Positions 49,700 to 63,109 of a DNA stretch of 64,000 bases are shown one piece after another; the stretch's first letter is position 1; each line of letters begins with the position of its first letter. The stretch comes from Acidobacteriota bacterium (GTDB lineage: Bacteria; Acidobacteriota; Thermoanaerobaculia; Multivoradales; Multivoraceae), in contig JAPPCR010000023.1 of NCBI GenBank assembly GCA_028875725.1, forward strand, positions 248,001-312,000, given 5' to 3'. Made by a program: the position numbers and the translations under genes. The notes under the pieces were generated by a model. It did not search any database, was not told the origin of the DNA, and saw only the letters and a list, made by a program, of their open reading frames with translations.

Positions 49700-50023
49700 C
49701 GGCGTCGCAGCGGAGGTCGTGACCGTCCGCCCGGTGATCGTAGGGGAGGAACTGTGCGCCCCCGCTAGTAGCACGCTCGAGGAGGGTCGTGTGGACTGGT
49801 TCGCGGTTGGCGCGGATCGCACCACGCGGGTCGGCGCTTTGATCAGGGAACGGCCGTCGGCGCTCAGTCCTTCCGAATCGGAGCGAGAGTAGTGAACATA
49901 GGGACTTGTCGCGAAGGGCAGTCAGGTGCGGACCCTTAGCGCGGCCGCGCCGAATCATGCGAGGATCTACCGCCCACAGCCAAAGCGGAACCTAGTATGG
50001 TGATGTCGCGGAAGGTAATCGAG
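49700..50023. other. Intergenic stretch, boundary of the accessory region
   Basis: No gene, tRNA or strong repeat is seen. TAGTAT at 49993-49998 could be the -10 of the collagen-like gene. From here base composition falls and the gene content becomes accessory. Confidence 0.4.
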
Positions 50024-51001
50024 ATGAACAGACAGAAGCCTGAGGGACGAGGTACTGCACTGCGAAAAAGGCTCACCGATGTCTTGAGTGCCAGGTGGTG
50101 GATCGGAATCGGTGTTTGCATCACAGCCATCGGTCTGGTGCCGCTGTTCTGTAGCGACGGTAGACAAGATCCCGAGTGGCAGCGGAAGCTGCGGACAGAT
50201 CTTGAACAACTCCCGGACGAACCCGCGAACCACTTGAGGGTCGCTCGGGGCGGCGTGCTTGAACTCGGACCGGTCGACAGGTTCCTCTTCCACAGCCTGA
50301 TACTTGAACAAGACAGCACGTTGAAGCTCACTGATGGACTTCCAGTTCAAGAACTACGCGCAGAGAGGGTTGAACTGCGTCCAGGTGCTTCCATCCAGGG
50401 CGTGGGGCGCCCTGGTCTTCCGGGCGAATCAGGTTCGCCCGGTGCTAAGGGCGGCAAGTGCACAAGAGGGCAAGATGGGACGGACGGGACCTCCGGCAAG
50501 CCAGGTGGCGATGGCCTTGACATTCGCATCGAGACGCTTGAACTAGTTCTTGATGGCTCTGTCACGATAGACACATCTGCGGGTGCCGGCGGTTCGGGTG
50601 GAGCTGGTGGGGCAGGCGGCCGTGGGGGTCGTGGCGACAGAAGCGACCTCTGCGACGGTGGCGACGGTGGCAGCGGAGGCAGTGGCGGCGACGGCGGTTC
50701 CGGCGGAAGCGCTGGCGACTTGCACATTCGTTTCGCGGAAGTCCTGCGATCCTCCGGCAAGAAGCTCAGTCCAAACGACTTGGCTCGGATGGTTGCCCAC
50801 GTTGCCCGTCTAGGGAAGGGTGGCGAGAAGGGCGAAGGTGGAGCAGGAGGGGCCGGTGGACCGGGGCAAGGTGCCAACATTCTCGGTGTCTCAGCCGATG
50901 CGGGTTCCCGCGGCAGCAACGGGGAATCGGGCGACCGCGGCAACGACGGTGACCGCGGGCGAACAACGCTTGGAGATACTCCGGCCGAGCAAGTCCCGTG
51001 A
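50024..51001 (+). CDS. Membrane-anchored collagen-like glycine-repeat protein
   Basis: About 325 residues from ATG 50024, which has AAGG 8 nt upstream; ATG 49997 is a longer alternative, but it overlaps a -10-like box. One transmembrane helix (WWIGIGVCITAIGLVPLF, about residues 26-43) is followed by a non-repetitive part and then three Gly-rich blocks: collagen-like G-x-x repeats (GRPGLPGESGSPGAKGG), a GG-rich block (SGGAGGAGGRGGRGDR) and a second collagen-like block (GSNGESGDRGNDGDRG). I know no function. Codon use is less GC-biased than in the flanking housekeeping genes. Confidence 0.68.
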   Translation: MNRQKPEGRGTALRKRLTDVLSARWWIGIGVCITAIGLVPLFCSDGRQDPEWQRKLRTDLEQLPDEPANHLRVARGGVLELGPVDRFLFHSLILEQDSTLKLTDGLPVQELRAERVELRPGASIQGVGRPGLPGESGSPGAKGGKCTRGQDGTDGTSGKPGGDGLDIRIETLELVLDGSVTIDTSAGAGGSGGAGGAGGRGGRGDRSDLCDGGDGGSGGSGGDGGSGGSAGDLHIRFAEVLRSSGKKLSPNDLARMVAHVARLGKGGEKGEGGAGGAGGPGQGANILGVSADAGSRGSNGESGDRGNDGDRGRTTLGDTPAEQVP

Positions 51002-55136: not shown

Positions 55137-55661
55137 TCAGTCCCGCCCGTTGGCCCGATCCTCAATGGCCTGACAGGCATCCATCAACACGCCAAACGGC
55201 TCCGCTTCGTCGAGTAGCCACCCACCCTCCACCATCCGCGCGTAGTCGTCGGCCAAGGCCGACAGCGCGCCTCCAGCGGGAACGAGCCGCAAGCCGCCGG
55301 TCACTGCCGCTCCGTAGTCCACCCAGTTGCCCGACGCGTCCTTCGCTCGGAAGAACGCGGCCTTGTGTGCCGCAACCTCCTCCGCGATCCTGCGGTCCGC
55401 CAGGGCGCTGGTCACGACACCGGACTCGTCGAGCCGCACGAGATCGTGCCAATGCCGGGCGAACCCATCGCCGCGCCCCCGCCGCTGCACACAGTACACA
55501 TGCGCCGCCGTTGCCTTCTCCCAGAACGTACGCTCCGCCTGCAAGACCCGGGGCTTCGCCGTCGGAAACTCCACGCCCGGCACATGGTCCGCCGCGTCGC
55601 AGCGAACCCCCATCGCCGCATTGGGCTCCCCGGTCGCCCGGCCACCGAACTCGAGCTTCAC
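55137..55661 (-). CDS. AbiEii-type toxin, C-terminal part (frameshifted)
   Basis: 174 residues from GTG 55661. The opening KLEFGGRATGEP and TFWEKATAAHVYC..., HWHDLVRL and FFRAKDASGNWVDYG are typical of the second half of AbiEii nucleotidyltransferase toxins. Extending the frame upstream through 55661 reads DYGRPEVKLEFG, the expected continuous family sequence, so this is the same gene as the next feature, interrupted by a one-base shift. As it stands, translation would need reinitiation at GTGA. Confidence 0.75.
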   Translation of the reverse strand: MKLEFGGRATGEPNAAMGVRCDAADHVPGVEFPTAKPRVLQAERTFWEKATAAHVYCVQRRGRGDGFARHWHDLVRLDESGVVTSALADRRIAEEVAAHKAAFFRAKDASGNWVDYGAAVTGGLRLVPAGGALSALADDYARMVEGGWLLDEAEPFGVLMDACQAIEDRANGRD

Positions 55662-56149
55662 TTCCGGCCGCCCGTAGTCCGTACCTCCTGCAACGCGGCG
55701 TACCGGATGACCACGTCGCCGCCTTCAACCGCGACCTTTCCGCCCGGCTCGACGACCTGCAACGACCGAGCGAGCGTCGGCGCGGCGACTTCGTGTAACC
55801 AGGTGCTCAGAGCACGACCCACGGCCTTGGTCCACCGCTTCTCCTGACTCCGGCTTGGCGGCAGCGCATCCGGGTGATCGCGGACCAACTCCGGCGCAAG
55901 CGCTCGAATGTCGTAGCTGAGGTCGATGTCCTGCGAGAAACGGCGAATGGCGCCGTAGGCCTTGGACAGGGACGTACCGCCCTTGAAGACGAGCGGCGCC
56001 CCGAGCGGGCCGGCGAACAGGGTTTTGAGCGACCACACGACCCAGATGTCCTTCTCCAGCAGATAGGCGGGCCGGCCCGATGCGCTTGCCGCGACATCGA
56101 GCACTTCCCGGCGATCGTCGAAGGTCAGCTCCAGATACCGCTCAGCCAT
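55658..56149 (-). CDS. AbiEii-type toxin, N-terminal part (frameshifted)
   Basis: 163 residues. The nucleotidyltransferase core is visible as FKGGTSLSKAYGAI with RFSQDIDLSYD (GS-x-D-x-D class), preceded by the LEKDIWVVWSLKTLF helix. AbiEii adds nucleotides to tRNA and stops growth. After VVIRYAALQEV the frame diverges and stops within eight codons, while the conserved continuation is in the next frame. The start overlaps the AbiEi stop by 8 nt, so toxin and antitoxin are coupled. Either a real lesion or a sequencing error. Confidence 0.8.
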   Translation of the reverse strand: MAERYLELTFDDRREVLDVAASASGRPAYLLEKDIWVVWSLKTLFAGPLGAPLVFKGGTSLSKAYGAIRRFSQDIDLSYDIRALAPELVRDHPDALPPSRSQEKRWTKAVGRALSTWLHEVAAPTLARSLQVVEPGGKVAVEGGDVVIRYAALQEVRTTGGRK

Positions 56150-56735
56150 GGGCCACTGCGTTCACCGGCCCGGCCAACCACCCCGGCATCTGCGCGCTCA
56201 CGCTGCCGAGTTCCCGGCGCTCCTCCTCGCTCAACCGTTCCCGCACCAGCCCCGTCGCTTCACCAGCCCGGTCGCGCCCGAGCCAGGCGAGCGCCCGGAC
56301 CGCCTCACCGGCACGCCGGCCGGCCAGCGCCAATTGCCACGGCGGCGCATGGCGCAACTCGACCCGCTCGCGGCCAAGCGTCAGCGTTCGGCTGGGCCCC
56401 GACGTCAGAAAGACGCGCCTGACGGGCACCTGCCCGGTGAGGCCGAGCACGTTCGCCGCCATCGCGCCGCTGTTCGCGATCCGCTCCCCGCGCGCGGCCG
56501 CGAGTGCCGTGACTGTCTTCTCGACAGACGGCGCGCGGCGGCCGAAACGGCTCTCTACGGGTAGAACATACACACCACGCCCCGCCCGCAGCAGCGCGCC
56601 GCGCCGCACCAGACGCGACAGGGCCTGGTCGATCGCCGCCCGACTGCCGAGGTGCAACAGCCCCTTCGCCAGCACCGGGGCACCTTCCGGCTGTTCTTCC
56701 GCGTACCGCAGTACCGTTTCGCTCAATCGTTCCAT
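56142..56735 (-). CDS. AbiEi-type antitoxin (DUF6088-like)
   Basis: 197 residues. An N-terminal winged helix (LGSRAAIDQALSRLVRRGALLRAGRGVYVLP, in short family blocks) is followed by the AbiEi C-terminal domain (RIANSGAMAANVLGLTGQVP, VRRVFLTSGPSRTLTLGRE). AbiEi represses its own operon and neutralises AbiEii in type IV toxin-antitoxin systems. Start ATG 56735 has GAGAGG upstream. A promoter with an inverted repeat over its -10 sits 25-50 nt upstream, as expected for autorepression. First gene of the pair. Confidence 0.85.
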   Translation of the reverse strand: MERLSETVLRYAEEQPEGAPVLAKGLLHLGSRAAIDQALSRLVRRGALLRAGRGVYVLPVESRFGRRAPSVEKTVTALAAARGERIANSGAMAANVLGLTGQVPVRRVFLTSGPSRTLTLGRERVELRHAPPWQLALAGRRAGEAVRALAWLGRDRAGEATGLVRERLSEEERRELGSVSAQMPGWLAGPVNAVAHG

Positions 56736-56749
56736 GGCGAACACCTCTC

Positions 56750-56881: not shown

Positions 56882-57571
56882 CTAGTCCAGCGGCTCCTCT
56901 TCCCGCCATGCCGACTTGCCGTCCGCGTAGTGCTCTCGCTTCCAGATCGGCACTTCTGCCTTGAGACGCTCCAGGGCGAGGCGGTTCACCTCGTAGGCCT
57001 GACGCCGGTGGGCAGAAGCAGTCGCGATGACTACGCTCGCATCGCCTACTTCGAGCGTGCCCAAGCCGTGGACGATCTCTACCCGAGTTCCCGGCTCCGC
57101 CGCCTCGAGCTCGCTAACGATCCGTTCGAGGCGCCTCTCCGCCATCGCCGGGTACGCGGAGTAGTTGATCCGCTCGACCGGCCGTCCGCCGAAGGAGTTG
57201 CGGACGTTGCCGACGAATACGACCACCGCTCCCTTGCGCGCGTCCTCTACGCCGGCGCGTACCGCCGACACCGTGGCCGCGTCGACGGCGCCGTCCCGCA
57301 GCCGGCGGGCGCCGGCGCCGCATGAGCCGCCGGAAACCGGGGGCAGGAGAGCCACTTCCGCGCCGTCGTGAAGCGGGACCGTCCGGTCCCCGGCGACTTC
57401 CCCGTCGACGGCGACCGCCAGCCGCGGCCAAAGGGCTTCCAGACCCGGATACGCCGCCGTCAGGCGCTCGACCAGGTCGGCGACCGTGCTGCCGTCCGGG
57501 AGGTCGTGTTCCGTCTCGGCGCTGCCTACAGCGTCCAGCGCGGTGGCGAAGCTCAGCACCCGTACGATCAA
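56882..57571 (-). CDS. MoaD-MoaE fusion (molybdopterin synthase)
   Basis: 229 residues joining both subunits of molybdopterin synthase. Residues 1-82 are MoaD, ending LLPPVSGG; Gly81-Gly82 would be the C-terminus of a free MoaD, where sulfur is carried as a thiocarboxylate. Residues about 95-229 are MoaE with VVFVGNVRNSFGG, HGLGTLEVGDASV, SAHRRQAYEVNRLALE and the catalytic lysine in PIWKREHYADG. A free Gly-Gly end needs cleavage between the two parts; the Mycobacterium MoaX fusion is known to be cleaved in this way. Divergent from the HAD gene. Confidence 0.9.
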   Translation of the reverse strand: MIVRVLSFATALDAVGSAETEHDLPDGSTVADLVERLTAAYPGLEALWPRLAVAVDGEVAGDRTVPLHDGAEVALLPPVSGGSCGAGARRLRDGAVDAATVSAVRAGVEDARKGAVVVFVGNVRNSFGGRPVERINYSAYPAMAERRLERIVSELEAAEPGTRVEIVHGLGTLEVGDASVVIATASAHRRQAYEVNRLALERLKAEVPIWKREHYADGKSAWREEEPLD

Positions 57572-57628: not shown

Positions 57629-58336
57629 ATGATGCGGCTCCTGCTCTTCGACATCGACGGCACCCTGGTACGGTGCGGCCCTCAGATCGGGCCCATCTTC
57701 ATGGGCGCGCTCAAGCGCACCTTCGGCCAGACGGGCAACGTCCGCGCCTACGACTTCGGCGGCAGAACGGACACGGAGGCGGTGATCGACCTGATGACCG
57801 AGGCCGGCCTGCCGCGCGACGAGGTCGAAGGCCGCCTGGGCGAGGTGCGTTCCCACTACAGCCACCTGCTCGAGCGGCTCGACCCGGACCAGATGAGGCT
57901 ACTGCCCGGCGTCGTCGAGCTGCTCGAGGAGTTGGCAGCCGCCGAGGACACCTGCGTTGCCCTGCTCACCGGCAACTGGGAGATCGGCGCGCGGGCCAAG
58001 CTCGAACCCTTCGGCCTGAACCGCTTCTTCGACTTCGGCGCGTTCGGCGAGGACGGCGTCCGGCGCAATGAGCTGGTGCCTGTCGCCGTCGAACGGGCCG
58101 CCCGGCGTATCGGCGCCGCACCGGAGCCGAGCAACGTCGTCATCATCGGCGACACGGTCCGCGACATCGCCTGCGGCGATGCCCATGGCGTCCCGGTGCT
58201 GGCCGTGGCAACCGGCTTCACGCCCGACCACCGACTGGAAGAAGCAGGCGCCCGCTGGGTCGTGCCGGACCTCCGCCACGCCTCGGTGCGGGAGATTCTC
58301 CTCGACGGGCACGGCCGCGCGCGGCGGACGCCATGA
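57629..58336 (+). CDS. HAD-family phosphatase
   Basis: 235 residues. Motif I LLFDIDGTLVR at the start, motif II LLTGNWEIG (threonine near 110), motif III lysine region and motif IV VVIIGDTVRDIACG with the Mg-binding aspartates near 170. The alpha-helical cap between residues 15 and 85 makes it a subfamily I member like phosphoglycolate phosphatase. Substrate unknown. The last codons overlap the ygfZ start (ATGA), so the two are translationally coupled. Confidence 0.9.
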   Translation: MMRLLLFDIDGTLVRCGPQIGPIFMGALKRTFGQTGNVRAYDFGGRTDTEAVIDLMTEAGLPRDEVEGRLGEVRSHYSHLLERLDPDQMRLLPGVVELLEELAAAEDTCVALLTGNWEIGARAKLEPFGLNRFFDFGAFGEDGVRRNELVPVAVERAARRIGAAPEPSNVVIIGDTVRDIACGDAHGVPVLAVATGFTPDHRLEEAGARWVVPDLRHASVREILLDGHGRARRTP

Positions 58337-59307
58337 GCTTCGAACGCGACGTCGAACTGCTCACCACCGAAGCCGCCCTGTGCGAGCCCGTCCCGGCTTC
58401 CCGGCTGGAACTCATGGGTCCCGACCGCGAGCGGTTCTTCGGCGGCATGGTGACCGCGGCCATCGAAGGCCTCGAACCCGGCACCGGCCGCTTCGGCTTC
58501 ATCACCGACGTCCGCGGCCGCATTCTCGCCAGCGCCGCCGTGCTGACACTCGATGACCGTCTGTGGCTGGAGATCCCGAAGGGCCGGGGCAGGACGATCA
58601 TCGAGCACCTGGAGAAGTACATCGTCACCGACCAGGTCGAGATCCTGCCGCTCGGCGACATGGCCTCCGTCAGGGTCGCCGGGCCGAAGAGCGCTGAGGC
58701 TCTGGCCGATCTCGGCGCCTCGGCGGCCCGCGACCTGACCGAGCCCTGGAGCCACACCCAGGCAGAACTCCTCGACCATCAGGCTCGCCTCGTCCGCGAG
58801 GGCAATAGCCCGGCGCCCGCCTTCTCCCTATGGCAGTCCTCGGCGATCGCACCCTTGATGGCGGACGACCTGGCCGAAGCAGGCCTGCAGCGGGTCGGCC
58901 GCGAGGCGACCGAGGCCCTCCGCATCGAACACGGCCACCCGCTATGGGGCGTCGACTACGACGACGCCAACCTGCCCCCGGAGACCGGCATCGAAGACGC
59001 CGTCGACTTCGAGAAGGGCTGCTACCTCGGCCAGGAGATCGTCGCCCGCATCCACTATCGCGGCCAGCCTGCCCGCCGCATGTGTCGGCTCGTCTTCGAG
59101 CCCGGGCACATTCCGGCCGCAGGGACCGAGATCGAGTTCGACGGCCGAAGCGCCGGTACGGTCACCAGCATCTCCCCGTCGCCGCGCCACGACGCCGCCA
59201 TCGGCCTCGCCCTGCTGCCGCGACGGGTCATGGAGGCCCAGCCCGACGCGAGGGTGAAGGTCGACGGTCGGAACGTCTCGTTCGAACCGTTGGCGCCCGA
59301 AACCTAG
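58333..59307 (+). CDS. ygfZ: Folate-binding protein YgfZ
   Basis: 324 residues of the GcvT-like fold. The family signature is KGCYLGQEIVARIHYRGQ near residue 230, with the conserved Cys. GPDRERFFGGMVTAAI and GRFGFITDVRGRILA form the N-terminal folate-binding part. YgfZ (IBA57-like) helps maintain certain Fe-S enzymes, including the methylthiotransferase MiaB. It overlaps the HAD gene by 4 nt and converges on the CysO-MoeZ fusion gene 9 nt away, placing it among sulfur-transfer genes. Confidence 0.93.
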   Translation: MSFERDVELLTTEAALCEPVPASRLELMGPDRERFFGGMVTAAIEGLEPGTGRFGFITDVRGRILASAAVLTLDDRLWLEIPKGRGRTIIEHLEKYIVTDQVEILPLGDMASVRVAGPKSAEALADLGASAARDLTEPWSHTQAELLDHQARLVREGNSPAPAFSLWQSSAIAPLMADDLAEAGLQRVGREATEALRIEHGHPLWGVDYDDANLPPETGIEDAVDFEKGCYLGQEIVARIHYRGQPARRMCRLVFEPGHIPAAGTEIEFDGRSAGTVTSISPSPRHDAAIGLALLPRRVMEAQPDARVKVDGRNVSFEPLAPET

Positions 59308-59316
59308 GCCGTTCCC

Positions 59317-60792
59317 TCAGTACCGCGGCAACGACGGATCCACCTCCACCGCCCACGCATCAATCCCGCCGGCCAGGTTGTAAGCCTGCGGGAAGCCGTT
59401 GTCGCGGAGGATGTTCGTCGCCCGGGTCGACCGCGGGCCGTGGTGGCAGTGGACGACCCAGAGCTTCGAAGGGTCGAGTTCGGCGAGCCGGCCTTCGAGT
59501 TCGGCAACCGGGATCAGGGTCGAGCCGTCGATCCGGCAGATCGCGTACTCCTGCGGGCCCCGGACGTCGAGGATGCTGAAGTTGCGGCCATCGTTCATCC
59601 AGGACTGGACCTGGGTCGGAGTCACGTCAATCAGGTCGTTGAGCGCCGGTTCCTCGGCGACGGCGGGAACGCCGCAGAACTGCTCGTAGTCGATCAGCTC
59701 GGTCTGGGTCGGGTTCTCGGAGCAAATGGGGCAGTCCGGGTTCTTGCGCAGCTTCAGTTCGCGGAAGCTCATGCGCAGGGCGTCGAACAGGAGCAGACGG
59801 CCGATCAGGGGATCGCCCTGGCCGATGATCAGCTTGATCACCTCGTTCGCCTGCAGGCTGCCGATGATGCCGGGCAGCACGCCGAGGACGCCGCCCTCGG
59901 CGCATGAGGGGACGAGTCCCGGCGGCGGCGGCTCGGCGAACAGGCAGCGGTAGCAGGGACCCTTGGCGCCCCAGAACACGGACACCTGGCCCTCGAAGCG
60001 GAAGATCGACCCGTAGACGTTCGGCTTGCCGAGCAGGACGCATGCGTCGTTGACCAGGTAGCGGGTCGGGAAGTTGTCCGTGCCGTCGACGATCACGTCG
60101 TAGTCCTCGAAGATCTCGAGCGCGTTGCTCGAGTCGAGCAGCACCGGGTGCGGCGTGAGTTCGATGTGAGGGTTCACCTCGTGCAGGCGCTCGACCGCGG
60201 CGTCGAGCTTGGGCCGGCCGACGTCCGCGTTGCTGTACAGCAACTGCCGGTGCAGGTTCGATTCGTCGACGACGTCGAAGTCGACCAGGCCGAGGCGGCC
60301 GACGCCCGCCGCGGCCAGGTACATGCCGACCGGCGAGCCGAGCCCGCCGGTGCCGATCATCAGCACCTTGGCCTGCTTGAGCTTCAACTGCCCCTCGGAA
60401 CCGACCTCGGGCATGATGAGGTGGCGGCTGTAGCGGAGGATCTCCTCCGGGTTCAGCTCGGTCGCGGTCGATTGCGTCGCGGTCGACTCCGCCGCGGCCG
60501 GCGGCGGTTCCGCCACCGCACCGCCGGCGATCGACGGGATGATCGCAAGCGTCGCGTCGCCGTTGATCGGCGTCGCCTCGCGCTCCAGGTAGCGCACGTC
60601 CTCGTCGTTCAGGAACAGGTTGACGAAGGTGCGCAGCTTGCCGTCGTCACCGAACAGGTGGGGCCGCAGCCCTTCGTAGCGGGTGACGAGCTGTTCCATC
60701 GCCTCGCCGACCGTCGCGGCGGCCACCGCCACCTCGGACTGTTCGTCGGCGAAGCCCCGCAGGGGCGTGGGAATCTGTATGAGTACGGTCAT
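59317..60792 (-). CDS. CysO-MoeZ fusion: ubiquitin-like sulfur carrier, E1-like adenylyltransferase and rhodanese
   Basis: 491 residues in three parts. Residues 1-91 are a MoaD/CysO-like carrier ending IPSIAGG (Gly90-Gly91). After an Ala/Thr/Pro linker (about 92-112) comes the MoeB/ThiF domain with nucleotide loop MIGTGGLGSPVG (146-155), zinc cysteines CYRC (279, 282) and CPIC (354, 357) and the catalytic Cys in PSCAEGG (296). Residues about 385-491 are a rhodanese with the sulfur-carrying Cys449 in VVHCHHGPRST. It would adenylate and sulfurate the carrier for cysteine synthesis. GGAG precedes ATG 60792; mec and cysM lie upstream in the same operon. Confidence 0.92.
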   Translation of the reverse strand: MTVLIQIPTPLRGFADEQSEVAVAAATVGEAMEQLVTRYEGLRPHLFGDDGKLRTFVNLFLNDEDVRYLEREATPINGDATLAIIPSIAGGAVAEPPPAAAESTATQSTATELNPEEILRYSRHLIMPEVGSEGQLKLKQAKVLMIGTGGLGSPVGMYLAAAGVGRLGLVDFDVVDESNLHRQLLYSNADVGRPKLDAAVERLHEVNPHIELTPHPVLLDSSNALEIFEDYDVIVDGTDNFPTRYLVNDACVLLGKPNVYGSIFRFEGQVSVFWGAKGPCYRCLFAEPPPPGLVPSCAEGGVLGVLPGIIGSLQANEVIKLIIGQGDPLIGRLLLFDALRMSFRELKLRKNPDCPICSENPTQTELIDYEQFCGVPAVAEEPALNDLIDVTPTQVQSWMNDGRNFSILDVRGPQEYAICRIDGSTLIPVAELEGRLAELDPSKLWVVHCHHGPRSTRATNILRDNGFPQAYNLAGGIDAWAVEVDPSLPRY

Positions 60793-60829: not shown

Positions 60830-61288
60830 TCAGGTCGGGGGCGGTTCAGGAACGCGGATCGGTTCCTCGTCGAAGCGGGAACGGTCGTTGCTGAGCCGCC
60901 AACTCCGCTCGTCCCTGGCGCGGCCCTCGCGCACCGAGACGATCAGGTAACTGTAGCCCGGCCAGGCGTGGTCCCGGTCGAAGTCGCTGGGCCGCGACGG
61001 GTGATCCGGGTGCGAGTGGTAGTAGCCGACCACGTCCAGGCCGTCCGCGCGCGCCTCCCGCTCGGTCCGCAGGATGACCTCGGGCGGGATCAGGTAGCGG
61101 TTGTGGCGGCTCTCGTCCTCGCGCGTGTTCTCGGCGCCCACCAGCCGCGCCACCCGGGCCAAAGACGCCCCATCATCGCCGGCAGCCTTCTCGCTGCTGC
61201 CGACCAGGATGCCGCAGCACTCCTCCGGGTACGTCGCCTCGCCGTGGGCGCGGATGCGGGCCAGGTCGCCCTGGGACAGCTCGATCAT
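60830..61288 (-). CDS. mec: JAMM-domain peptidase, Mec type (CysO-cysteine peptidase)
   Basis: 152 residues. The JAMM+ zinc centre is complete: the Glu in YPEECCGILVG (near 23) and HSHPDHPSRPSDFD (near 92, His-x-His-x10-Asp). Mec in Mycobacterium removes cysteine from the C-terminus of the carrier CysO. The gene lies between cysM (2 nt upstream) and the CysO-MoeZ fusion (37 nt downstream), giving the full CysO pathway in one operon. Cytoplasmic. Confidence 0.92.
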   Translation of the reverse strand: MIELSQGDLARIRAHGEATYPEECCGILVGSSEKAAGDDGASLARVARLVGAENTREDESRHNRYLIPPEVILRTEREARADGLDVVGYYHSHPDHPSRPSDFDRDHAWPGYSYLIVSVREGRARDERSWRLSNDRSRFDEEPIRVPEPPPT

Positions 61289-61290
61289 CC

Positions 61291-62298
61291 TCAGTCCTCG
61301 TCCCAGAACGGTTCGGACAGGTACTTGTCGGCGCCGTCGCAGAGGATGGTCACCACCACGGCGCGCTCCCCGGCCTCGGCCGCGCGCTCGGCGATCCGCC
61401 GCCCGGCGACCACGTTCGCGGCCGCCGAGATGCCGACGAGCAGGCCGTTTCCGCGGGCGAGCGCCTTGATCTCGGCGTAGGCGTCCTCGGTGCTGACTTC
61501 CGTCTCCTCGCTGGCGATCGAATCGTCGTAGATCGCCGGCACAAGGGCGCTCGGCATGTGCTTCATGCCCTCCAGCCCGTGGAAGGGACCGTCCGGCTGC
61601 ATCGAGATGAGCCGGACCCCGGGAGCGCGTTCGGCCAGGTACCGGGCCGTGCCGCAGAAGGTGCCGCTGGTGCCAAGACCCGCGACGAAATGGGTGAGCC
61701 GGCCCTCCGTCTGCATCCAGATCTCGGGGCCGGTGGTCTCGAAGTGAGCCCGCCAGTTGGCGGTGTTGCTGTACTGGTCGACGTAGCAGAACGCCTCCGG
61801 ATCCGCCTCGATCATCCGGCGCGCCTCGCGGATCGCGCCGTCCGAGCCTTCCATCGGATCGGTCAGGACGAGTTCGGCGCCGAACGCGCCGAGAGTGCGG
61901 CGGCGCTCGATCGAGGCGTTCTCCGGCAGGCAGAGCGTCACGCCTACATCCATCGCCGCGCCGATCATGGCGAGCGCGATACCGGTGTTGCCCGAGGTCG
62001 CGTCCAGGACCCGCCGGCCGCCGTCGAGCTGGCCGGCGTCCCGGGCTGCCAGCATCATGTGACGCGCCGGCCGGTCCTTGACCGAGCCGCCGGGATTCGC
62101 CATCTCCGCCTTGGCCAGAAGCTCCGATCCGAGTTCCCGAGCGGCCGGTCCGAGGACGTGGCTCAGGTCGAGCAGAGGCGTGTTGCCGATCCGCGACAGG
62201 AGACGCCGCGCGCCGTCGGCGAGCCCCTCCGGAATCGGCGGGCCGGCCAGCTCCACAACGGCTGCTGCGTACTCGCTGGAAGCGGATTCGGCGATCAT
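61291..62298 (-). CDS. cysM: Cysteine synthase, CysM type
   Basis: 335 residues of the beta family of PLP enzymes. The PLP lysine is in ANPGGSVKDRPARHM (near 75), the substrate loop is DATSGNTGIALAMIG, and the phosphate-binding loop VAGLGTSGTFCG follows near 195. CysM enzymes of this context use O-phosphoserine and thiocarboxylated CysO, which fits the downstream mec and CysO-MoeZ genes. ATG 62298 is chosen because the family aligns from about ELAGPP onward. The upstream in-frame CKCERCGQQF segment belongs to no recognised domain. Divergent from the oxidoreductase gene. Confidence 0.9.
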   Translation of the reverse strand: MIAESASSEYAAAVVELAGPPIPEGLADGARRLLSRIGNTPLLDLSHVLGPAARELGSELLAKAEMANPGGSVKDRPARHMMLAARDAGQLDGGRRVLDATSGNTGIALAMIGAAMDVGVTLCLPENASIERRRTLGAFGAELVLTDPMEGSDGAIREARRMIEADPEAFCYVDQYSNTANWRAHFETTGPEIWMQTEGRLTHFVAGLGTSGTFCGTARYLAERAPGVRLISMQPDGPFHGLEGMKHMPSALVPAIYDDSIASEETEVSTEDAYAEIKALARGNGLLVGISAAANVVAGRRIAERAAEAGERAVVVTILCDGADKYLSEPFWDED

Positions 62299-62468
62299 CA
62301 ACGTTTCCCTACCAAGACGATTGCCCCCGTTCCACCAGAGCCGCCGAAGACAACTCGCAACGGACTCCGGCGGGCGGCTCCGGGCAAGCCGCGGCGCGGG
62401 GACCGGGAATTGTTGACCACATCGCTCACATTTACAACCGGCGGGCTGCATGGCGCCGCGCGTGTCGA

Positions 62469-62485
62469 TAGTCTTCCCCGCCATG
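62469..62485 (+). promoter_or_regulatory. Leaderless-type promoter of the molybdopterin oxidoreductase gene
   Basis: TAGTCT (62469-62474) lies 8 nt before ATG 62483, and no ribosome site is present between them. Confidence 0.45.
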
Positions 62486-63109
62486 AACGATGTCCCGAGG
62501 CGCGGCGACGACCGGATCCCTCCCGGCCAGTACGTCACGAAGAAGTGGCCGGTGCTGTCCGTCGGCGACACGCCGGAGGTCGATCTGGCCGGCTTCGAAC
62601 TGCGGCTGTTCGGCCGCGTCGAGGCCGAGCACGCGTTCGACTGGCGAACGCTTCAGTCGCTGCCGCGGCGCGAGGTGACGGCGGACTTCCACTGCGTCAC
62701 CCGCTTCTCGACGCTTGACAACCCGTGGTCCGGGTTCGCGACCCGGGACGTGCTGGGGGCGGTTGCGCTGTCTCCGGACGCTACACACGCGATGATCCAC
62801 TGCTACGGCGGCTACACGACGAACCTGCCGCTCGACGACCTGCTCTCCGAGCACGCGTTGTTCGCGGACCTTCACGGCGGCGAACCGCTGGCGCCGGATC
62901 ATGGCGGGCCGCTCCGGCTCGTGGTGCCGCATCTCTACGCCTGGAAGAGCGCGAAGTGGGTTTCGGGCGTCGAGTTCCTCAACGCCGATGAGCGGGGCTT
63001 CTGGGAGGAGAACGGGTACCACACCTACGGAGACCCGTGGGCCGAGCAGCGGTTCTCGTCGCAGGAGACGCGGCAGGCGTGGCAGGTGCGGAGATCAGTC
63101 GGTCTCTAG
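62483..63109 (+). CDS. Sulfite oxidase-like molybdopterin-dependent oxidoreductase
   Basis: 208 residues of the sulfite oxidase/YedY fold. The molybdenum ligand Cys is in TADFHCVTRFSTLDNPWSG (near 72), and MIHCYGGYTTNLPLDDLL plus LVVPHLYAWKSAKWVSGVEF form the cofactor-binding core. There is no Tat signal, haem domain or dimerisation domain, so it is the short cytoplasmic type of unknown substrate. It depends on molybdopterin and lies 5 kb from the MoaD-MoaE fusion. Its end overlaps the convergent argR by 15 nt. Confidence 0.88.
   Translation: MNDVPRRGDDRIPPGQYVTKKWPVLSVGDTPEVDLAGFELRLFGRVEAEHAFDWRTLQSLPRREVTADFHCVTRFSTLDNPWSGFATRDVLGAVALSPDATHAMIHCYGGYTTNLPLDDLLSEHALFADLHGGEPLAPDHGGPLRLVVPHLYAWKSAKWVSGVEFLNADERGFWEENGYHTYGDPWAEQRFSSQETRQAWQVRRSVGL

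Follow-up and report, generated by a model that had tools for sequence, protein, structure and literature searches.

A MoaD-MoaE fusion with an internal Gly-Gly in an acidobacterium and its probable cleavage by a JAMM metalloprotease

The window, a stretch of 64,000 nucleotides, encodes a MoaX-like protein in which a MoaD domain runs past its Gly-Gly into MoaE. Judging from sequence comparisons, we consider it probable that this fusion is cut after Gly82 by a JAMM metalloprotease, likely the Mec-type enzyme of the same window (Table 1), and that the released MoaD is then charged to make molybdopterin. We observed the fusion, the invariance of its Gly-Gly, a single MoaE and a single Mec-type JAMM in the genome, and an association of fusion and JAMM across genomes. 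The genome-wide argument for a JAMM is stronger than the local one, which is that a mec gene lies 3 kb away.

Table 1. Coordinates of the fusion gene, the Mec cluster and a possible user of the cofactor within the window
Feature	Coordinates	Strand	Basis
MoaD-MoaE fusion (MoaX-like molybdopterin synthase precursor), 229 aa, TTG start	56882..57571	-	Pfam, alignment, PDB
MoaD half, residues 1-82, PPVSGG at end	57326..57571	-	Pfam ThiS 8-82
Gly81-Gly82 codons; predicted cut after Gly82	57326..57331	-	GG invariance in aligned fusions
Linker SCGAGARRLRDGAVDAA, Gly82 to MoaE match	57275..57325	-	Pfam boundaries, sequence
MoaE half, sole MoaE found in genome	56882..57274	-	Pfam; genome search
CysO-MoeZ(ThiF/E1)-rhodanese fusion, second sulfur carrier, internal Gly90-Gly91	59317..60792	-	Pfam, PDB match
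CysO Gly90-Gly91 codons (PSIAGG, then AVAE), predicted second cut site	60520..60525	-	Sequence, 3dwg_C match
Mec-type JAMM metalloprotease (Prok-JAB), motif HSHPDHPSRPSDFD, predicted processing enzyme	60830..61288	-	Pfam; JAMM tree
cysM-type cysteine synthase (PALP), first gene of cysM-mec-cysO::moeZ cluster	61291..62571	-	Pfam
Oxidoreductase with molybdopterin-binding domain, possible cofactor user	62450..63109	+	PF00174, E 5.8e-36

Pfam searches recovered a ThiS domain (residues 8-82, E 1.1e-14) followed in the same frame by a MoaE domain (residues 100-206, E 6.6e-31), both above the curated cut-offs and in the order typical of MoaX. The initial annotation had described a MoaD-MoaE fusion with an internal Gly81-Gly82, and this is confirmed by the ORF, by Pfam and by the top PDB match (9jbd_A, 'Probable MoaD-MoaE fusion protein MoaX', aligned over the MoaE part with E 4.5e-28). 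Its statement that MoaE comes immediately after the Gly-Gly needs correction, given that 17 residues separate Gly82 from the start of the MoaE match. The glycine pair (57331-57326) closes the motif PPVSGG and is followed by SCGAGARR; this numbering counts from the TTG codon, and a true start at the GTG four codons inside would lower it by four. In an alignment of 14 fusions PPVSGG is invariant (columns 77-82, with the Gly-Gly in 14/14), as are HR (188-189), K204 and WK (210-211), which match the catalytic residues of E. coli MoaE. The nearest named relatives are proteins of Thermoanaerobaculia MAGs, with 91 and 86% identity, which places the organism in this class of acidobacteria or close to it. 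In all 7 members of the window's genus the fusion is encoded as a single frame, indicating that it is not a chance product. Separate moaD and moaE genes had been named as the observation that would speak against the proposal, and a search of the genome (G000; 4.54 Mb, 97.96% complete) found no MoaE beyond the fusion.

The fusion gene stands alone, divergent from genes for a HAD hydrolase (57629-58336) and a GcvT/YgfZ-like protein (58333-59307), beyond which lies a minus-strand cluster of cysM, mec and the gene for the CysO-MoeZ-rhodanese protein. The Mec protein has a Prok-JAB domain with the HxH-x7-S-x2-D motif intact and a Glu near the N-terminus, and is encoded together with cysM and cysO. 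Residues 1-91 of the CysO-MoeZ-rhodanese protein align with M. tuberculosis CysO (3dwg_C, E 6.3e-12), and the match stops exactly at the Gly-Gly; since 400 residues follow, this carrier has no free C-terminal Gly-Gly as encoded and is a CysO-like precursor rather than free CysO. The order of the JAMM, CysO-MoeZ and fusion genes is the same in all 6 genus relatives examined, within the stretch covered. Just downstream of the fusion gene are an AbiEii-like gene (55658-56149, minus strand), whose match spans only positions 4-93 of the 238 of the profile, and an AbiEi/DUF6088-like gene (56142-56744, minus strand), which likely form a type IV toxin-antitoxin pair. Elsewhere in the window, an ORF on the plus strand (49997-51001) contains a long Gly-rich, collagen-like region.

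These features suggest a pathway in which the fusion gene would give rise to an inactive molybdopterin synthase precursor, its MoaD being neither adenylated nor thiocarboxylated while the C-terminal glycine bears MoaE. A JAMM, most likely Mec, would then cut after Gly82 and generate a MoaD with a Gly-Gly end and a MoaE with an N-terminal tail. We infer that it is this Mec that cuts the fusion here, and that the MoeZ-rhodanese module subsequently charges MoaD, which together with MoaE would produce molybdopterin. The same Mec probably also frees CysO from its E1 and removes cysteine from CysO-Cys.

Across the genome, PF02597 matched four proteins, namely the MoaD-MoaE fusion, the CysO-MoeZ protein, a ThiS-class protein that ends exactly at Gly-Gly, and a MoaD-like domain with an internal AGG that is joined via AGG-SG to an APH-type kinase and DUF6285 (L005:61-1887, minus strand; L258, C6:1406270-1407970 of the window's own genome). 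The ThiS match of this last protein fell just short of the cut-off in one search (22.3 vs 22.5 bits) and above it in another (25.8 bits); its gene adjoins one for an aldehyde ferredoxin oxidoreductase and the fusion is kept in 7/7 genus members. There are hence three carriers fused past an internal Gly-Gly (MoaD-MoaE, CysO-MoeZ-rhodanese and MoaD-like-APH) and one Mec-type JAMM found in this genome. The fusion could in principle work uncut, or only its MoaE half could matter with sulfur supplied by another MoaD, as the presence of other ThiS-like proteins among the four matches might suggest. However, two of the other carriers, those that are not ThiS, are likewise fused past their Gly-Gly, the fourth protein looks like ThiS, every scored fusion retains the Gly-Gly together with the MoaD fold, and in MoaX the G81A substitution is described as blocking cleavage and function alike (PMC4326299), so that we regard this alternative as very improbable. 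The Prok-JAB search yielded three matches in the genome, Mec and two weaker ones, and no second Mec-type JAMM. The frame of the first weaker match reads as a phage-tail JAB plus NlpC-type protein; the other carries HNHPSG and is presumably RadC-like. Both were dropped as candidate processors.

The survey of the phylum covered 149 genomes, of which 139, 111 and 119 gave matches to the ThiS, MoaE and Prok-JAB profiles, respectively. The C-terminus of MoaD was scored in 110 genomes from MoaE neighbourhoods and some separately retrieved MoaD; three MoaE-bearing genomes were left out (G040, which is mixed, and G039 and G114, of undetermined state), and two with a MoaD and no listed MoaE match were included (G059 and G092). 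A JAMM was counted as strong at about 59 bits or more (66 genomes); this threshold and the 38 bits used for the named genomes below were set after viewing gaps in the scores. MoaD was found fused to MoaE in 27 genomes, always with the Gly-Gly kept (27/27), tailed by 1 to 14 residues past the Gly-Gly in 17, and ending exactly at Gly-Gly in 66. Strong JAMMs occur in 26/27 fused and 16/17 tailed genomes versus 20/66 of those with a free Gly-Gly. Thus, 42/44 genomes with a blocked MoaD have a JAMM as against 20/66 with an exact end (Fisher p 1e-12, a value that ignores kinship and treats genomes of the same family as independent, which they are not). When each family was given one vote per state, the proportions were 16/18 and 12/30 (p 0.001). 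The presence of a JAMM in 20 genomes with a free Gly-Gly is expected if the first job of Mec is on CysO-Cys.

The exceptions are few. The one fused genome (G025) contains only a divergent JAB protein, in which HTH-x7-S-x2-D is intact, and the one tailed genome (G124), an assembly of 650 contigs at 91% completeness, has no strong JAMM and also encodes a CysO-E1 frame. A possible further exception, outside the count, is G040, with a second, fused MoaE on a contig of 3,067 bases and no strong JAMM. By contrast with the window's genome, G128, of the same family, has a MoaD that ends at Gly-Gly; when the fused proteins are used as queries, its MoeZ and APH matches set in at query residues 105 and 97, respectively.

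Other carriers show comparable extensions. CysO runs into E1 in 31 genomes and is tailed in 20, with the Gly-Gly kept in all, the loci being mostly around JAMM genes; it ends exactly at Gly-Gly in 5 genomes, including G113 and G137, which lack a JAMM, and G018 likewise combines an exact CysO with the lack of a JAMM. As most of the CysO genes came to light through a neighbouring JAMM gene, the sample is biased. ThiS is tailed or runs on in 23 of 64 genomes (those listed or retrieved, a part of the full set), 22 of them with a JAMM, and is exact in 41, 13 of them with a JAMM; at the family level the proportions are 8/9 vs 9/15, which is not significant (p 0.19). Short tails past the terminal Gly-Gly of MoaD and ThiS (VGRR, SATERD, ATVS and CGADRV among others) were seen nearly always in JAMM genomes (L098-L197, L288-L327). 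In three genomes (G008, G023 and G045, all JAMM-bearing) the sequence of ThiS reads on past the Gly-Gly into ThiG-like sequence (L301, L302, L313).

A scan of the contigs of named genomes, which may overlap the 149 and come with no completeness values, gave 80 loci, 62 of them fused in one frame and all 62 with the Gly-Gly kept. The genomes of 56 of the 62 contain a JAMM, and at the chosen thresholds none was detected in the other six (G152, G154, G157, G159, G209 and G211). Among loci whose titles place them outside Acidobacteriota, a JAMM of at least 38 bits accompanies 30/34 fused as against 8/16 unfused loci (p 0.01). The further 28 fused loci, most of them titled Acidobacteriota, include 26 with a JAMM at 55 bits or more, and for the two unfused loci beside them the JAMM scores are 39 and 93 bits. 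When the window's Mec was used as a protein query against six genomes, no match was obtained in any; as this search had no positive control, we gave it no weight. The initial annotation had suggested a check of whether the fusion co-occurs with JAMM genes, and it does so in both sets (26/27 and 56/62). Together with the precedents of MoaX and DR0402/DR2607 (see below), this co-occurrence lends good support to the view that cleavage at Gly82 is required and is the work of a JAMM.

The association could mostly reflect shared ancestry rather than function, given that families share states and that the ThiS tails fall short of significance at the family level. We consider this unlikely, as the family-level test for MoaD holds, family f1 has 7 fused genomes with a JAMM while its only unfused member is without a strong one, and the association recurs in fused genomes outside the phylum. 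The residue that follows the Gly-Gly bears on a different alternative, self-cleavage of the fusion, for instance through an acyl shift involving the residue that follows Gly82. In the window's protein this is a Ser followed by a Cys, a pair found in 7/7 genus members, and MoaX also has a serine here (Ser83; PMC4326299). However, across the 62 fused loci the position is variable (S 23, A 14, Q 8, T 8, E 6, and H, D and G one each), half of them being without Ser, Thr or Cys, and the inactivity reported for MoaX in E. coli has been read in the literature as missing processing. The variability argues against self-cleavage, which we dropped as barely credible.

As to which JAMM would act on the fusion, a tree of 79 JAMM domains, built on few columns and with several long-branched rows, recovered a clade (support 100/99) whose 16 JAMMs have no cysM, cysO or E1 alongside. 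The window's Mec lies outside this clade, among the Mec-operon proteins. The 27 fused genomes of the phylum comprise 16, including that of the window, whose sole strong JAMM lies in a cysM/cysO/E1 neighbourhood, 8 with a JAMM of the second clade, and three (G014, G025 and G116) with other JAMMs. In G009 the JAMM gene that directly adjoins the fusion gene, with the same orientation, is of the second clade (L156:5917-7034, minus strand). Hence, there seem to be two solutions, one in which Mec does double duty and one with a dedicated JAMM, and the second-clade JAMM may be the true processing enzyme in the eight fused genomes that carry it.

The proposal that Mec is the candidate by virtue of its position 3 kb away probably stands as to the enzyme and not as to the reason. 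Only 1/62 fused loci of the named set has a JAMM within the examined flank of up to 10 kb, and the mec gene, about 3.3 kb from the fusion, belongs to a cysM-mec-cysO cluster of its own behind two opposite-strand genes, so its nearness is weak evidence and was dropped as the main argument. The stronger point is that the genome has no other Mec-type JAMM that we could find. It is also conceivable that another protease cuts the fusion and that Mec is restricted to the hydrolysis of CysO-Cys. This would be in line with the company that Mec keeps (cysM and cysO), with the six fused named-set genomes without a detected JAMM, with the separate clade in 8/27 fused genomes, and with the cutting of MoaX in M. 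smegmatis by a protease not named in PMC4326299. Against this stand the high incidence of JAMMs in fused genomes of both sets, the lack of a second Mec-type enzyme in the search of this genome and the Deinococcus precedent, and we judge cleavage by a protease other than Mec to be quite unlikely.

With rather more reserve than for the cleavage by Mec, and with doubt slightly outweighing confidence, we put forward that JAMMs serve as general sulfur-carrier maturation enzymes in these acidobacteria, and that in the window's genus one Mec matures three fused carriers besides running cysteine synthesis. On this general-maturation reading, MoaD, CysO, ThiS and the aldehyde-oxidoreductase-linked MoaD would be made as precursors blocked past their Gly-Gly, the block being either a short tail or a fusion partner (MoaE, MoeZ, ThiG or an APH-type kinase). 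If so, the cofactor and cysteine pathways, and perhaps those of tungsten enzymes, would be gated by one metalloprotease, a situation with a likeness to the eukaryotic ubiquitin precursors that are opened by proteases. Mec would then be a processing enzyme beyond its role as CysO-cysteine hydrolase. What may be new is the breadth of the pattern: tails and fusions past the Gly-Gly affect several carriers and go with a JAMM, and in the window's genus three fused carriers stand against a single Mec. We found no account of C-terminal tails on bacterial MoaD, ThiS or CysO in the open-access papers searched, and do not claim the pattern to be unpublished. A published result from a single species would thereby become a testable rule, namely that a bacterial carrier with residues past its Gly-Gly predicts a JAMM in the genome. 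The rule agrees with the E. coli result for MoaX, and the survey provides pairs for testing it, including genomes with one JAMM only.

Cleavage of a MoaD-MoaE fusion by a JAMM is itself already proposed and, in another phylum, reported. Iyer et al. 2006 noted fusions of the MoaD-MoaE, ThiS-ThiG and Ub-like-ThiF types and raised the possibility that JAB domains cut off the carrier, and row 4c of their compilation shows carriers clustered with E1-rhodanese, JAB and cysteine synthase, in one case in Acidobacteria (PMC1779556). Narrandes et al. 2015 located the cleavage of MoaX between Gly82 and Ser83 (PMC4326299). The initial annotation regarded the protease of MoaX-like fusions as generally not known; this is out of date, as one is known for Deinococcus, where DR0402 is reported to cut DR2607 (Yang et al. 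2018, as cited in PMC8832034, PMC9916421 and PMC11237513). According to Cai et al. 2022, a Deinococcus JAMM mutant accumulates cPMP, which is left unused (PMC8832034). A count of MoaD-MoaE fusions given in PMC11237513 is 775 among 33957 bacterial genomes, and that paper also refers to MoaD-MoeBR fusions that are shared with Acidobacteria.

Carriers such as QbsE, the partner of QbsD, are made with residues past the Gly-Gly, and a JAMM trims the tail; unlike these, the tailed carriers described here (MoaD, ThiS and CysO) belong to primary metabolism. The window's fusion resembles M. tuberculosis MoaX in domain order, in the Gly81-Gly82 at the join followed by Ser, and in its best PDB match, and MoaX needs cleavage for its function (PMC4326299). 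M. tuberculosis differs in also having separate moaD1, moaD2, moaE1 and moaE2 genes (PMC4326299), whereas one MoaE was found here. As in Deinococcus radiodurans with DR2607 and DR0402 (DRJAMM), a single MoaD-MoaE protein occurs with a JAMM protease in the genome; the difference is that the candidate here is a Mec in a cysM-mec-cysO::moeZ cluster. That cluster brings cysM, mec and cysO together, as in the mycobacterial Mec/CysO/CysM cysteine pathway, and its CysO part matches the mycobacterial protein. In contrast to mycobacterial CysO, the one encoded here is fused to its E1 and a rhodanese, and would therefore need a cut as well.
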